32,856 nt of DNA, taken from contig LCGB01000006.1 in assembly GCA_000999465.1 (NCBI GenBank), positions 1-32,856 of the forward strand, read 5' to 3'. The translations under genes were made by a program, and so were the position numbers. The notes below the pieces were generated by a model that saw nothing but the letters and a program-made list of their open reading frames with translations, made no database searches and had not been told where the DNA came from. Of this stretch, positions 4,790-18,712 are shown one piece after another. Source of the DNA: Candidatus Nomurabacteria bacterium GW2011_GWB1_43_19. GTDB taxonomy: Bacteria > Patescibacteriota > Minisyncoccia > Phycocordibacterales > UBA9973. Within the stretch, counting starts at the first letter, position 1; the number at the start of each line of letters is the position of its first letter.

Positions 4790-5110
4790 TTAGGGACACG
4801 ACGGGCTCAATGGAATACTTGGGGCTCCTGGTATGGTTTGTCCGTAAACCCAAAAAGTATCCACGTTTGAACAAGCTCCCGCACCGCCTTCGCCTTGGTT
4901 TGCGTCCAGCGGTTTTCCTTGCTCTCTTTGAGCAATTATTATTACTTGGACAATCTCACGCATTTCAACTTTAGCTTTAGTTACCCTAGCTTTGTCTCGT
5001 GCGGAATTCAAGCTAGCCAAAACTACTGAAGCCAGAACTCCAATAATAGCAACTACGACAAGAAGTTCTATGAGAGTAAAACCGGCATTATTTTTGCGAA
5101 AGAAAGTCAT
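4790..5110 (-). CDS. Type IV pilin-like / pseudopilin protein
   Basis: 'NNAGFTLIELLVVVAIIGVLASVVLASLNSARDKA' prepilin cleavage/methylation motif. Confidence 0.9.
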   Translation of the reverse strand: MTFFRKNNAGFTLIELLVVVAIIGVLASVVLASLNSARDKARVTKAKVEMREIVQVIIIAQREQGKPLDANQGEGGAGACSNVDTFWVYGQTIPGAPSIPLSPSCP

Positions 5111-5229
5111 TTAGGTATTTTATCAACTATCTACCCCTCACAAGTTCTCTGAAGTGATTATTTACAGATGGTCTATTGCGGCAATTTCGGCAAGGACTCG
5201 CGAACTTCTGAACAAGAACATACAATAGT

Positions 5230-5251
5230 CACGGCCGTTGTTATTATGGTA
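5230..5251 (+). promoter_or_regulatory. 22-nt flanking motif, upstream copy (PaaX-like gene 1)
   Basis: CACGGCCGTTGTTATTATGGTA; reverse complement of 5847-5868 matches 21/22. Confidence 0.7.
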
Positions 5252-5261
5252 ATATATTAAT

Positions 5262-5822
5262 ATGCGTTTAATTGACCAAGAATCAAATTCCGGAAAAATA
5301 ATCCGTGCCCTTGGTATGGGAATAGGTATATCTGTGGCTTTAGGGAACAGGAGAACGAGTTATAAAATGACAAAAACATTGATCAAGAGAATTTTTGGTT
5401 CAAACAAGCAACCCAAAAATTATTCCAGATATTTTTCTAAATTGAGAAAACAAAAGCTTGTATGCATTAAACAAGTTGGCAATGATCATATAATTTCCCT
5501 GACAGAAAAAGGGGGAGATGTTTTGTTGAGGTTTAATTATGAAAACTTGGAAATAACGCAAAAGAAAATTTGGGATAGAAATTTTCGTATGGTTATTTTT
5601 GATATTCCAGAAACAAAAAGAAACGCGAGAGACTCGCTTCGAGCAAAAATTAAAGAGCTGGGTTTGGTAAAATTTAACGATAGCGTTTGGGTATATCCAT
5701 ACCCATGCCAAAAAGAGATTGATTTTATCGCTAACTATTGGGGTATAGGTAAGTATGTGCACTTTGCTTTAGTGAAAAACATAACTAATAGGGACTACTT
5801 GGAAAGATATTTCCATTTATAA
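5262..5822 (+). CDS. PaaX-like regulator with Cas2-like C-terminal fold
   Basis: Winged-helix-like N-terminus plus 'KIWDRNFRMVIFDIPETKRNARDSLRAKIKELGLVKFNDSVWVYPYPCQKEIDFIANYWGI...YLERYFHL'; paralogous to 18069-18674. Confidence 0.75.
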   Translation: MRLIDQESNSGKIIRALGMGIGISVALGNRRTSYKMTKTLIKRIFGSNKQPKNYSRYFSKLRKQKLVCIKQVGNDHIISLTEKGGDVLLRFNYENLEITQKKIWDRNFRMVIFDIPETKRNARDSLRAKIKELGLVKFNDSVWVYPYPCQKEIDFIANYWGIGKYVHFALVKNITNRDYLERYFHL

Positions 5823-5846
5823 ATAAGAAATAAGCATTTTTATAAC

Positions 5847-5868
5847 TACCATAATAACAATGGCCGTG
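5847..5868 (-). promoter_or_regulatory. 22-nt flanking motif, downstream inverted copy (PaaX-like gene 1)
   Basis: TACCATAATAACAATGGCCGTG; reverse complement CACGGCCATTGTTATTATGGTA. Confidence 0.7.
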
Positions 5869-5905
5869 GTTATTAATTACATTTACATTAGTTAACCATT
5901 ATTTA

Positions 5906-14193: not shown

Positions 14194-14308
14194 TTGACAT
14201 ATATTTTGGATTTGCTATACTTCCCATTACAAATGGCTTCGGCCCTCCCCTCTGCAAGGAGGGGTATAAAGAAAAAATCAGGTAAGCAATTGCTTGATTT
14301 TTTCTTTT
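14194..14308 (+). ncRNA. Candidate short transcript: extended -10 promoter, hairpins, terminator
   Basis: TTGACA (14194-14199)-N16-TATACT (14216-14221) with TGC; ACAAATGGCTTCGGCC; CCCCTctgcaAGGAGGGG; AAAAAATCaggtAAGCAATTGCTTGATTTTTTC terminator-like; antisense to mazF-like 3' end. Confidence 0.35.
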
Positions 14309-14688
14309 AATACAATAAAATCTGCCTCACTTATCATGCCAACTTTATACTTCAACCTTTTTGCGTCAAAAAGGCGTACTTGTGAAACAATGGCTACGCT
14401 TTCGCTTTCATTAAGATTAAAAGCAAAATAATATTTTCCTGTCTTTTTTGTATGAGTCAACGGGACCCCAAGAAAAATTTCATTATTAAATTTTTTTGTT
14501 ATTACAACAGGACGCAGAAATTCTTCACCTCGCCCATCTTGTTCGAAACCAACATTTTCCCCAATTGAACAAGAAAAAACATCTCGTATCTGAAAATTTA
14601 TCCGATTCTCTTTTAGCTCTACCTTACTTTTTATTTTGTGCCAATTTATAAAATCTTTCATATATATATAATTTCTAACGGGATTCAT
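14278..14688 (-). CDS. MazF/PemK-like toxin-family protein (start uncertain; M at 14661 plausible)
   Basis: 'IRDVFSCSIGENVGFEQDGRGEEFLRPVVITKKFNNEIFLGVPLTHTKK...SVAIVSQVRLFDAKRLKYKVGMISEADFIVLKEKIKQLL'. Confidence 0.8.
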   Translation of the reverse strand: MNPVRNYIYMKDFINWHKIKSKVELKENRINFQIRDVFSCSIGENVGFEQDGRGEEFLRPVVITKKFNNEIFLGVPLTHTKKTGKYYFAFNLNESESVAIVSQVRLFDAKRLKYKVGMISEADFIVLKEKIKQLLT

Positions 14689-17600
14689 TTTCCCCTTTCT
14701 TTAAATTCACATCCAGCGCTAGACCCCGCAAATAATTGAGGAGCACGTTGAAAGATGCGGGAGAGTTTGGTGGCCGGATTGTTTCATTTTTAATAATAGA
14801 ATCAAAGGTCGCGGAACGTCCGAGTATATCGTCGGATTTAATGGTTAACATTTCACGGAGAGTGTAGGCGGCGCCGTAGCCCTCCAGCGCCCAGACCTCC
14901 ATTTCTCCGAATCTTTGCCCTCCGCCTTGAGCTTTTCCGCCCAAAGGCTGCTGGGTAATGAGCGAATAAGGTCCGATTGAACGCATGTGAATCTTGTCTT
15001 CCACCATATGATGAAGCTTAAGCATATACATATATCCGACAGCTACATCCTGTTCAAAAACTTCTCCGGTGCGTCCGTCAAAAAGTTTTAATTTGCCGTT
15101 TTCCGGAAATCCGGCTTTTTTCAATTCTTCTTTTATTTCTTCGTGCTTGGCTCCCAAAAATGACGGAACAATGGCCTGATATCCGAGAGAGTTGGCGGCC
15201 ATGCCCAGGTGGATTTCCAAAATTTGTCCCAGGTTCATGCGGGAAGGAATACCTAAAGGAGAAAGAATAATGTCGATGGGCGTACCGTCCTCGGTATAAG
15301 GCATATCCTCTTCCGGAAGAACTGTTGAAATAACTCCTTTGTTTCCGTGTCTTCCAGAGAGTTTGTCTCCAACCGAAATATTCCTGATTTGAGCGACTTC
15401 AATCGCGATTTTCTTGATAATACCCGCTTCAAGCGCGTGCCCGAGATCACGGGAAAAAATTTTCACACCGATTATGCGTCCGCGCTTGCCATGTTCCATT
15501 CGCAATGATGTGTCTTTCACATCACGCGCCTTTTCGGCAAAAATTGAACGAAGAAGCCGTTCCTCCGGAGTGAGTTCGGTTTCTCCTTTTGGAGTAATTT
15601 TCCCGACCAGAATATCATTCTCCCTCACTTCGGCGCCGATGCGGACAATGCCGTCCTCATCCAGGTCTTTTAATTTAAGTTCCCCGACATTCGGAATATC
15701 GCGGGTGGTAATTTCGGGTCCGAGTTTGGTATCACGGACTATACAGGTAAACTCTTCCACGTATACGCTGGTGAATTTGCTATTCTTTACTAGCCTTTCG
15801 GAAATAATAATTGCATCCTCGTAAGTTGAACCGGACCAGGACAAAAAGGCCACAAAAATATTCTGTCCGAGAGAGATCTGTCCGTTTACCGTACTCGAGG
15901 TATCTGCCAAGATATCGCCTTTTTTCACCTTGTCGCCGACATTGAGGAGCGGACGCTGGTGAAAGACGGCAAAGTTATTGTTTCGCAGGAAATTGATGAG
16001 CTGGTAGGTTTTTTCCTTTTTTCCGTTGACGACTATTTTCTTCGCATCCAAATAAGATATGATGCCGTCCTCTTCCGCAATGACCAACCGTCCGCCGTCG
16101 CGCGATGCAAGTTCTTCCACTCCAGTTGCCACAAGGGGCATTTCCGGCAGTACGCACGGCACAGCCTGTTTCTGCATGTTACTTCCCATCAGCGCTCGGT
16201 TAGCATTGTTGTGTTCTAAAAACGGAATCATGGAAGTTGCGATGGAAAAGGCCTGGTTGGTAGCCACGTCAATGAAATCCACTTCGTTTCTGGAAACCCT
16301 GCCCGGCTCGGTTTTGATTCTGGCTTCAACTTTTTCTTCGGTTATTTTTCCGTCTTCGTCATAAGGAATTCCGGCATGCGCAATGTTATATTTTTCTTCT
16401 TCCAGTGCATTCAGATAAATTATTTCACCGGTAAGTTTGCCGTTTTTAACTTTTATATAAGGAACCTCAATAATCCCAAAATCATTGATTCTCGCGTAAG
16501 TTGAAAGGTGCAGGATGAGCCCAATGTTCGGCCCTTCCGGAGTGTGAATCGGACAAACTCTTCCGTAGTGCGAAGGGTGCACATCGCGAACTTCAAGTCC
16601 GGCGCGTTCGCGAGTAAGGCCTCCGGGTCCAAGCGCGGAAAGTAGACGAATGTGTTCAATCTCGGCCAGCACATTTTCCTGGTTCATAAACTGAGAAAGC
16701 TGGTTGGTAGTGAAAAATTCTTTAATGCGGGCTTGAAGCGGGCGCTGGTTGATGATGGCAATCGGCATCGCCGTATCCACGTCAATAATGGACATCCGAT
16801 CCTGGATGTTCCTTTTAATCTGCATCATCCCGGTACGTACTTTTTGTTGCAAGATTTCTCCGACAAAACGCACGCGCCTTTGTCCGAGGTGGTCTATATC
16901 GTCCGCTTTTGCTCCCGGAGTATTGTTTAAGAAAATAATGTGCGAGACAACCGTCACCAAATCTTCCTTGGAAATCGTCCGGCGGGCCATTTCTTCCTCG
17001 CCCATTCCTTTCTCAAAGCGTTGGTTGAAACGGAACCGTCCGACCGGAGAAAGATCGTAGCGTTCCGGGGTAAACAGCGAATGAATGAATTCTTTGGCGT
17101 TGTCGGCCGTGGCCATATCGCCGTCCCGCAAACGCTTGTAAATTTCAATATATGCGTCATTTAAGTTTTTTAGTCCGTCTTTGGTCAATAAATTCTTGAC
17201 GGTTTCCGCTACCACTGGGTCTTTGGAGAAAGCTTTAATAAGCATTTCGTCTGTTTCGTAGCCCAAGACGCGCAAAAGCGCGGTGGCTGGGAACTTTCTT
17301 TTTTTGTCTATTCGTATGTAAATTCCTCCGTCGGCCTCCGATTCTATTTCAATCCAGACCCCACGGGCCGGAATAATTTTCGCGCCGAAATATCTACTGC
17401 CCTTAATTTCGGATTCAGTAAAGAAAACCCCGAAGCTTCTGGCCAACTGGGGCACAATGACACGCTCCACTCCGTTGATGATAAAAGTGCCGTGGGAAGT
17501 CATCAAAGGAACATCTGACATAAAAATTTCCTGTTCCTTGACGGTGCCCAGAATTTTGTTGGTCAGCTTGACCCGCGCCTTCAAGGGCCCTTGATAAGAG

Positions 17601-17848
17601 AGCTTGTTTATTTTGGAATTGTTTTCATCGATTTTGGATTCGCTTAAAGAAAAAGAGGTGAATTCCAACTGAAATTTTTTTCCGGAGTAATCGGCAATTG
17701 GAGAAAATTCTTTAAAGACCTCCCCGATACCGGTTTCCACCAGCCATTTGAAGCTTTTTATCTGCGCCTCAATTAAATTCGGAAACTCCACCAGGGGTTT
17801 CTTATATCTTGAAAAATACTTCTTCGGACGAGATGTTATTTTATGCAT
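14675..17848 (-). CDS. rpoB: DNA-directed RNA polymerase subunit beta
   Basis: 'GRVCPIHTPEGPNIGLILHLSTYARIN', 'SVGDKLSGRHGNKGVISTVLPEEDMPY', 'GKAQGGGQRFGEMEVWALEGYGAA'. Confidence 0.99.
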   Translation of the reverse strand: MHKITSRPKKYFSRYKKPLVEFPNLIEAQIKSFKWLVETGIGEVFKEFSPIADYSGKKFQLEFTSFSLSESKIDENNSKINKLSYQGPLKARVKLTNKILGTVKEQEIFMSDVPLMTSHGTFIINGVERVIVPQLARSFGVFFTESEIKGSRYFGAKIIPARGVWIEIESEADGGIYIRIDKKRKFPATALLRVLGYETDEMLIKAFSKDPVVAETVKNLLTKDGLKNLNDAYIEIYKRLRDGDMATADNAKEFIHSLFTPERYDLSPVGRFRFNQRFEKGMGEEEMARRTISKEDLVTVVSHIIFLNNTPGAKADDIDHLGQRRVRFVGEILQQKVRTGMMQIKRNIQDRMSIIDVDTAMPIAIINQRPLQARIKEFFTTNQLSQFMNQENVLAEIEHIRLLSALGPGGLTRERAGLEVRDVHPSHYGRVCPIHTPEGPNIGLILHLSTYARINDFGIIEVPYIKVKNGKLTGEIIYLNALEEEKYNIAHAGIPYDEDGKITEEKVEARIKTEPGRVSRNEVDFIDVATNQAFSIATSMIPFLEHNNANRALMGSNMQKQAVPCVLPEMPLVATGVEELASRDGGRLVIAEEDGIISYLDAKKIVVNGKKEKTYQLINFLRNNNFAVFHQRPLLNVGDKVKKGDILADTSSTVNGQISLGQNIFVAFLSWSGSTYEDAIIISERLVKNSKFTSVYVEEFTCIVRDTKLGPEITTRDIPNVGELKLKDLDEDGIVRIGAEVRENDILVGKITPKGETELTPEERLLRSIFAEKARDVKDTSLRMEHGKRGRIIGVKIFSRDLGHALEAGIIKKIAIEVAQIRNISVGDKLSGRHGNKGVISTVLPEEDMPYTEDGTPIDIILSPLGIPSRMNLGQILEIHLGMAANSLGYQAIVPSFLGAKHEEIKEELKKAGFPENGKLKLFDGRTGEVFEQDVAVGYMYMLKLHHMVEDKIHMRSIGPYSLITQQPLGGKAQGGGQRFGEMEVWALEGYGAAYTLREMLTIKSDDILGRSATFDSIIKNETIRPPNSPASFNVLLNYLRGLALDVNLKKGENESR

Positions 17849-18037
17849 ACTGATTGAGTACGAAAAATTAACGCTTTTTTAAGGCCTTATAATTAAACAA
17901 GATTGCATCCGACACTCAATCAATGAATCTCAACCACCTTACTCTATTCGCGGTTTTTTGTCAACAGTTTATTGGGGATTAAAATAATATTTATGATTTT
18001 TCGTTGTTCTCTAAACTCACCAACGTATAACTTTTCT

Positions 18038-18060
18038 GCATATGCTGATTTCTTATACAT
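18038..18060 (+). promoter_or_regulatory. 23-nt flanking direct repeat, downstream copy (PaaX-like gene 2)
   Basis: GCATATGCTGATTTCTTATACAT; 20/23 identical to 18690-18712. Confidence 0.65.
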
Positions 18061-18068
18061 AGGGCAAA

Positions 18069-18674
18069 TTAAGTTAAATGGAAATGTTTCTTTAATTTTT
18101 CATCCCTTAAAATACTTTCCGTAGTCAGAACTTCCACGCACTTTTCCACTCCAAAAAAGTCAGCAACAAAAATTATTTCATCTTCGCAAGGATAAGGGTA
18201 AATCCAAGCGGATTTTTGAAATTGAAAAAAATTTAACTTCTTCAAATAATACCTCAAGGCTTCTCTCCCCTTTGTAAATCTCATAGGGATATCAAACATT
18301 ACTAACCTCCATTTTCCATCCCACTTTTTGGGTTTTTTAATTTCTATGAGGTCAATAGAAAAAGACTTCAATTTTGCTTCTCCTTTTTTGGTAATTTTGA
18401 CTATTGTTTTTCCATCCTTGTCACAGACATATTCTATAAGCTTTTGGCGTTTAATATTATTAACGGCACTACGAATTTGCCTTTTAGAATATTTCTTGGA
18501 ACCCCCAAATATTTTAAAGCATTGGACTGCGTTTCCTATAGCTCCAACTCCGACAACTAGTACCGGAATTGAGGCGAGAGCAAGTACACAAAGAGCAACC
18601 GTGGCAATCTTGGCTTTAGTGGTATCTGAATTTAAAAAATCTTGTAATTGTTCTTTATATCCTTGTTTGTACAT
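18069..18674 (-). CDS. PaaX-like regulator with Cas2-like C-terminal fold (second paralog, N-terminal hydrophobic segment)
   Basis: 'KWDGKWRLVMFDIPMRFTKGREALRYYLKKLNFFQFQKSAWIYPYPCEDEIIFVADFFGVEKCVEVL...KKHFHLT'; matches 5262-5822. Confidence 0.75.
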   Translation of the reverse strand: MYKQGYKEQLQDFLNSDTTKAKIATVALCVLALASIPVLVVGVGAIGNAVQCFKIFGGSKKYSKRQIRSAVNNIKRQKLIEYVCDKDGKTIVKITKKGEAKLKSFSIDLIEIKKPKKWDGKWRLVMFDIPMRFTKGREALRYYLKKLNFFQFQKSAWIYPYPCEDEIIFVADFFGVEKCVEVLTTESILRDEKLKKHFHLT

Positions 18675-18689
18675 GTGTATAATATACTA

Positions 18690-18712
18690 GCATATGCGGA
18701 ATTTTTATACAT
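18690..18712 (+). promoter_or_regulatory. 23-nt flanking direct repeat, upstream copy (PaaX-like gene 2)
   Basis: GCATATGCGGAATTTTTATACAT in the promoter region of the minus-strand gene. Confidence 0.65.

Follow-up and report, generated by a model that had tools for sequence, protein, structure and literature searches.

The DNA analysed here (hereafter the window) is a 32,856-nucleotide contig of the 623-kb genome of a Candidatus Nomurabacteria bacterium (Patescibacteria), which possesses 11 PaaX/Cas2-type genes. One of these, at positions 5262–5822 on the plus strand, encodes a 186-residue protein with a winged helix (wHTH) and a PaaX_M/Cas2-like domain. It lies between two palindromic sites, neither assigned to a strand: one at 5218–5251, with the core ACGGCCGT at 5231–5238, which overlaps the promoter region, and one at 5847–5880, with the core ATGGCCGT, 24 nt past the stop codon. 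The initial annotation had described 22-nt inverted repeats around this gene, and these are real: CACGGCCGTTGTTATTATGGTA is found at 5230–5251 on the plus strand, and its reverse complement, with one mismatch (21/22), at 5847–5868. The match extends to 28 nt (5224–5251 and 5847–5874, 89% identity), with the gene between the arms. Two matches to CACGGCCGTTGTTATTATGGTA with up to three mismatches are seen in the window against 0.01 expected, and none of 100 shuffles contained two, ruling out a chance inverted repeat. Each copy is, however, itself a degenerate palindrome of ~34 bp centred on ACGGCCGT, so that "inverted" as opposed to "direct" orientation means little. In other family members, the upstream and downstream copies match best in direct orientation.

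The -10-like hexamer TAATAT, reported to lie six nucleotides before the ATG, is present as claimed at 5250–5255 on the plus strand. Since a consensus scan found no sigma-70 -35/-10 pair near it, and in the absence of expression data, the leaderless transcription proposed for this gene is plausible only. The neighbouring genes are dsbA-like, rpoD and dnaG; there is no linked aromatic (paa) catabolic operon at the window gene, and the Pfam search of window proteins turned up no cas gene. A pilin-like ORF with an N-methylation motif (4790–5110, minus strand) is located between dsbA and the unit. The three other genomes with a unit at this junction have no pilin-like ORF in the same gap, and it may be a further insertion. 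The window includes a second unit, with a gene of the same family (18069–18674, minus strand; a paralog with 36% identity) and palindromes upstream (18677–18712) and downstream (18025–18060), unstranded and both with the core GCATATGC. Elsewhere, a PemK/MazF-like toxin gene (14278–14688, minus strand) sits between rpoB and rpoC, and overlaps the 3′ end of rpoB (14675–17848, minus strand).

The window protein matches the PaaX_M Cas2-like domain PF20803 (E = 4.9e-20), as do all of the 74 members of the family that were checked, while the Pfam Cas2 model is matched by 31 of these 74; some of the latter may be annotated as Cas2. In the AlphaFold model (mean pLDDT 84.6), an N-terminus of low confidence is followed by a winged helix and a confidently predicted Cas2-like domain. 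Its best match in the PDB is E. coli PaaX (8a39), and PaaX is the best profile match too, but the full-length PaaX equivalog TIGR02277 scores only 21.9 bits, far below its cut-off of 264.55. All 74 homologs compared keep D114, the residue at the acidic position typical of Cas2, which E. coli PaaX lacks in the alignment. In Pfam the family proteins give only PaaX_M, Cas2 and weak wHTH matches, with no signature of an HUH/Y1, DDE, serine or tyrosine recombinase. The winged helix shows distant similarity to the plasmid segregation protein TubR. A strongly hydrophobic 18-residue stretch is present near the N-terminus in 100 of 181 bracketed members, including the second window gene, suggesting membrane contact or a buried helix.

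Most of the 11 family genes in this genome possess a cognate palindrome on both sides. Its sequence varies from paralog to paralog but matches within each unit, the second window gene being an example. I quantified this bracketing by scoring the upstream flank of each gene against its own downstream flank, with the downstream flanks of other genes as the null. Matching palindromes, scoring above the 99th percentile of mismatched pairs, were identified for 177 of 250 family genes overall; separate tallies gave 38/77 in the first set, 32/42 in distant Patescibacteria families and 55/81 in named genomes. The sample was chosen through sequence searches and is not random. The view of gene and repeats as one self-contained unit is thus borne out across the family, and close relatives keep palindromes on both sides wherever they are located. 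Conversely, strict palindromes with the layout of this site are almost confined to family genes: of 137 such palindromes, 119 have a family gene within 150 bp, against 0 in the mirror control. PF20803 itself occurs in 48 of the 145 sampled genomes of the phylum, with 1–11 copies each.

Conservation of the gene without its repeats would have spoken against such a unit. The repeats are kept at the orthologous rpoD–dsbA loci; they are missing in some other members and in one separate lineage, found at G000:C3:86702–87061 and at syntenic loci in most genomes of the same genus. This lineage is single-copy (about one per genome) and vertically inherited, and constitutes an internal control. It may represent a host-adapted form from which the mobile units arose. 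Carriage by viruses was limited to one IMG/VR contig, encoding a distant homolog without a palindrome pair. Bracketed units were also noted on contigs binned outside Patescibacteria, in a Syntrophaceae MAG (L223) and a Thermodesulfobacteriota MAG (L268), reflecting either transfer or mis-binning. No description of this combination of gene and palindromes was found in the open-access PMC literature searched, and while absence there is no proof of novelty, the arrangement of a gene with its own palindromes, found across Patescibacteria, appears to be undescribed.

I then aligned 104 well-defined pairs on their centres, and derived a dyad profile. The profile is alike upstream and downstream: an 8-bp core pairs at 84–99%, a five-base spacer (positions 5–9) at 56–71%, and the arms (positions 10–18) at 75–93%, followed by background. 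The consensus site, of ~36 bp, thus combines 9-bp arms with an 8-bp core from which a loose spacer separates them, and the core centres are mostly CGGCCG, CGATCG, CATATG, CGACCG or CTATAG. Because pairing skips the spacer, which it would not do in a nucleic-acid hairpin, the pattern is that of protein contacts, and suggests a site bound by a protein, with the size of a PaaX operator, rather than an RNA hairpin, although this is inferred from the alignment without binding data. The sequence recognised by E. coli PaaX, TGATTC(N27)GAATCA, measures ~39 bp, and PaaX acts as a repressor of its own promoter (PMC9493321); the outer arms of the palindrome are thus at about the right distance. An RNA hairpin or intrinsic terminator was rejected as the common principle, given the low spacer pairing, T-rich tails in 21–28% only, and the two window copies, whose folding is no better than that of shuffles; L180 and L158 are exceptions, and form perfect hairpins. 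No terminator signature was seen in the downstream sites, as expected for a roadblock but no proof of one.

The two copies differ in promoter elements, a -10-like hexamer being found in 67 of 104 upstream but only 36 of 104 downstream copies; in other members it recurs at +14/+15 from the palindrome centre. In L333 and L163 the upstream copy contains TTGACA and the downstream copy TTAACA, and in L333 the upstream core is flanked by TTGACA and TATAAT. Nonetheless, the downstream copy is kept phylum-wide, and is conserved as well as the upstream one.

The junction between rpoD and the dsbA-like gene is filled in the window genome (G000), G001, G024 and MFVS01 (L201), while in most sampled genomes of the same genus only a short gap, or a different insert, separates these convergent genes. 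Between G000, G001 and MFVS01, the element shows a synonymous divergence (dS) of ~0.9–1.2, with dN of ~0.1, whereas dS for the flanking genes is mostly saturated, and otherwise 1.5 or more. Likewise, the DNA identity is 82–83% for the element, compared to 75–80% for rpoD and 67–69% for dnaG. This lower divergence relative to the neighbouring genes indicates that a gene for a functional protein has moved horizontally. At the ileS–recO and helicase–rpmB junctions, different subtypes of the family are found in different genomes, and some junctions are thus hot spots. There are no near-identical copies of the window element within its own genome.

Target-site duplications, which the initial annotation suggested looking for, are present in some relatives, but none was found at either unit of the window, and they are not specific to the family. 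A perfect 53-nt repeat of the rpoD 3′ end flanks the unit in L201, and comparable duplications involve trmD (L051), recR (L008, in the window's own genome), rpmB (L101), a helicase gene (L046), a kinase-like gene by secY (L376), rnhA (L192) and others, with matches of 42/43 nt in L376 and 48/50 in L377. They span ~28–65 nt, sometimes with an extra ORF inside. In L008 (G000:C3:70000–73170), a short ORF (75 residues) of MazG-like appearance lies, cargo-like, between the unit and the duplicated recR end. In the cases inspected, the duplications never abut the palindromes, from which they are separated by a varying 14–95 bp, and in L377 the end of the insert falls within a NUDIX gene, showing that ends can be arbitrary. 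Moreover, at the same rpoD–dsbA site in G004 (L111 and L441), a REP-type transposase ORF (Y1/HUH-like by appearance) is flanked by ~30 nt of duplicated rpoD end, and the counts show no clear difference between the family (11 non-palindromic cases among 234, by inspection) and control ORFs (2–4 of 115). A transposase with a classical target-site duplication was rejected on both these grounds. As similar duplications surround unrelated ORFs, they mark insertion events but do not show the family protein to be the agent; long repeats of gene ends may be what DNA insertion generally leaves behind in these genomes.

Copies of the palindrome also occur without a gene. Searching for the 34-bp pattern TACCATAATAGNNACGGCCGTNNCTATTATGGTA or its genome-specific variant, I identified ~2 such solo copies in the window genome (one of them at G000:C13:9112–9145), 4 in G001, ~8 in G343, 5 in G346, 4 in G014, and one each in G344 and G351, all of them genomes with a gene of this type. 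Where there were matches, they numbered 1–17 per genome (both strands counted), against 0–1 for the reversed-pattern control. Among genomes lacking the window subtype, G011 and G340 had no solo copy, and G005 just one spurious match in coding sequence. Four solo copies of an unrelated subtype were found in G148; for the L003 subtype there were none in the genome searched, so that not every subtype would form boundaries at other genes. One convergent gene pair has a solo copy common to three genomes. In G346, two paralogs differ in both arms and cores, and the solo copy L437 matches the second exactly outside the spacer. More generally, solo copies match the flank palindromes of their own genome only moderately better than shuffles (7.2 versus a mean of 2.6 and a maximum of 10.3 over 500 shuffles). 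Among the 30 solo sites at gene 3′ ends that could be classified, 19 are convergent, 11 tandem and 0 divergent, while only 16% of background gaps of at least 40 bp are convergent (p ~1e-8 for the excess). This location, with none between divergent genes, led to the rejection of a promoter regulon. In L404 (1440–1525), L414 and L401, solo copies of different subtypes were seen adjacent to each other in the same convergent intergenic gap.

The explanation I favour, tentatively and with confidence a little short of even, is that of a self-contained, horizontally mobile, autoregulated DNA-binding module. It starts from what is observed, namely the anatomy of the unit, the family-specific palindromes, the solo copies and where they lie, and movement over evolutionary time, as seen in presence or absence at junctions and in the low divergence relative to neighbours. 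That the protein binds these sites, represses its gene and acts as a roadblock is inferred, as is the insertion route. The winged-helix/Cas2-fold protein, as a dimer or higher oligomer, would bind the ~36-bp palindrome of its subtype. Binding to the upstream copy, with its promoter elements, would repress its own gene, and binding to the downstream and solo copies would create protein-dependent boundaries, most likely roadblocks for RNA polymerase, insulating the unit and the adjoining, mostly convergent, genes. The unit would pass between species when DNA is taken up and inserted in gaps between genes via a general host route. There are however no binding data, the convergent placing also fits neutral insertion where it is least harmful, and both the moderate solo-to-flank match and the absence of solo copies for L003 weigh against it. 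A simpler proposal, an ordinary autoregulated repressor whose downstream copy is a looping operator and whose solo copies are chance or relics without function, draws on the overlap of the upstream copy with promoter elements, and on the repression by PaaX of its own promoter (PMC9493321). I nevertheless regard it as quite unlikely, given the phylum-wide retention of a downstream copy conserved like the upstream one, the 1–17 palindrome matches (both strands counted) in genomes with matches, against 0–1 in reversed-pattern controls, and the solo copy that three genomes share at one orthologous gene pair.

The main rival is a Cas2-fold REPtron, that is, a transposon in which a Cas2-fold nuclease or transposase moves its own unit along with solo palindromes as non-autonomous copies. 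RAYT transposases are thought to move REPs, and a gene between two cognate palindromes, with solo copies in extragenic 3′ regions, is indeed the RAYT/REP anatomy. The invariant aspartate at the Cas2 position (for which catalysis is inferred only), presence or absence at gene junctions and the long duplications (53 nt of rpoD in L201, 42/43 in L376, 48/50 in L377) are also in its favour. Yet the protein has no recognised transposase or recombinase signature and the element no defined ends; the duplications lie off the palindromes at 14–95 bp, the insert can end arbitrarily (the NUDIX gene of L377), the rpoD-end duplication in G004 surrounds an unrelated transposase ORF, and the window's own genome lacks near-identical copies. 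This reading is possible, but on the unlikely side. Its bolder form, a new class of REPtron in which winged-helix Cas2-fold nucleases acting on their own palindromes spread gene and solo copies without Cas1, I consider improbable. Finally, the dispersed palindromes could be anchoring sites for a chromosome-organising or partition-type protein, as matS is for MatP and parS for ParB. The 2–8 dispersed sites per genome for one subtype, the distant winged-helix similarity to TubR, and the hydrophobic N-terminal stretch (100/181 members), which could anchor to the membrane, would agree with this. But that stretch is of low confidence in the AlphaFold model, and a small genome can hold up to 11 subtypes, patchy among relatives; I regard this reading, too, as quite unlikely.

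Patescibacteria, tiny bacteria of a parasitic type, possess many solo Cas2-like genes of unknown role, to which the analysis adds an anatomy, a predicted binding site per member, and proposed targets on the chromosome where genes end. If, as the module I favour would have it, the sites are protein-dependent transcription boundaries, they would give reduced genomes a new means of terminating or insulating transcription. If instead the protein moves the sites, this would be a mobile element with a Cas2-like protein, bearing on the origin of Cas2.

Several known systems resemble the family in part. It shares the Cas2-like ferredoxin fold and conserved aspartate with CRISPR Cas2, but is fused to a winged helix, with no cas gene among the searched window proteins and no CRISPR array noted (there was no dedicated array search). 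Insertion sequences and casposons are likewise compact single-gene units with end repeats, present or absent at a junction, with duplications in some relatives. Presence or absence at orthologous sites, as required of an insertion sequence, is seen here, but defined ends with an abutting duplication are not; there is no recognised transposase, and the duplications, of ~28–65 nt, lie off the repeats and flank other genes as well. In REPtrons, the RAYT gene is flanked by two cognate palindromes, with more in extragenic 3′ regions (PMC2817692), an arrangement shared by the family, with its flanking cognate palindromes and dispersed copies. The family protein is however no HUH tyrosine transposase, its solo copies number 0–8 per subtype and genome where REPs often exceed 100, and its palindromes, unlike REPs, are split into core, spacer and arm and carry a promoter. 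The PaaX repressors (E. coli, 8a39; Jannaschia, 3l09) possess the same winged helix followed by a Cas2-like PaaX_M domain, with an operator of ~39 bp and autorepression. Compared to PaaX (~300 residues), the 186-residue window protein lacks the PaaX C-terminal domain and a paa operon, and keeps the Cas2-type aspartate, while the family as a whole has its palindrome also downstream and dispersed, and is multi-copy, with different specificities.
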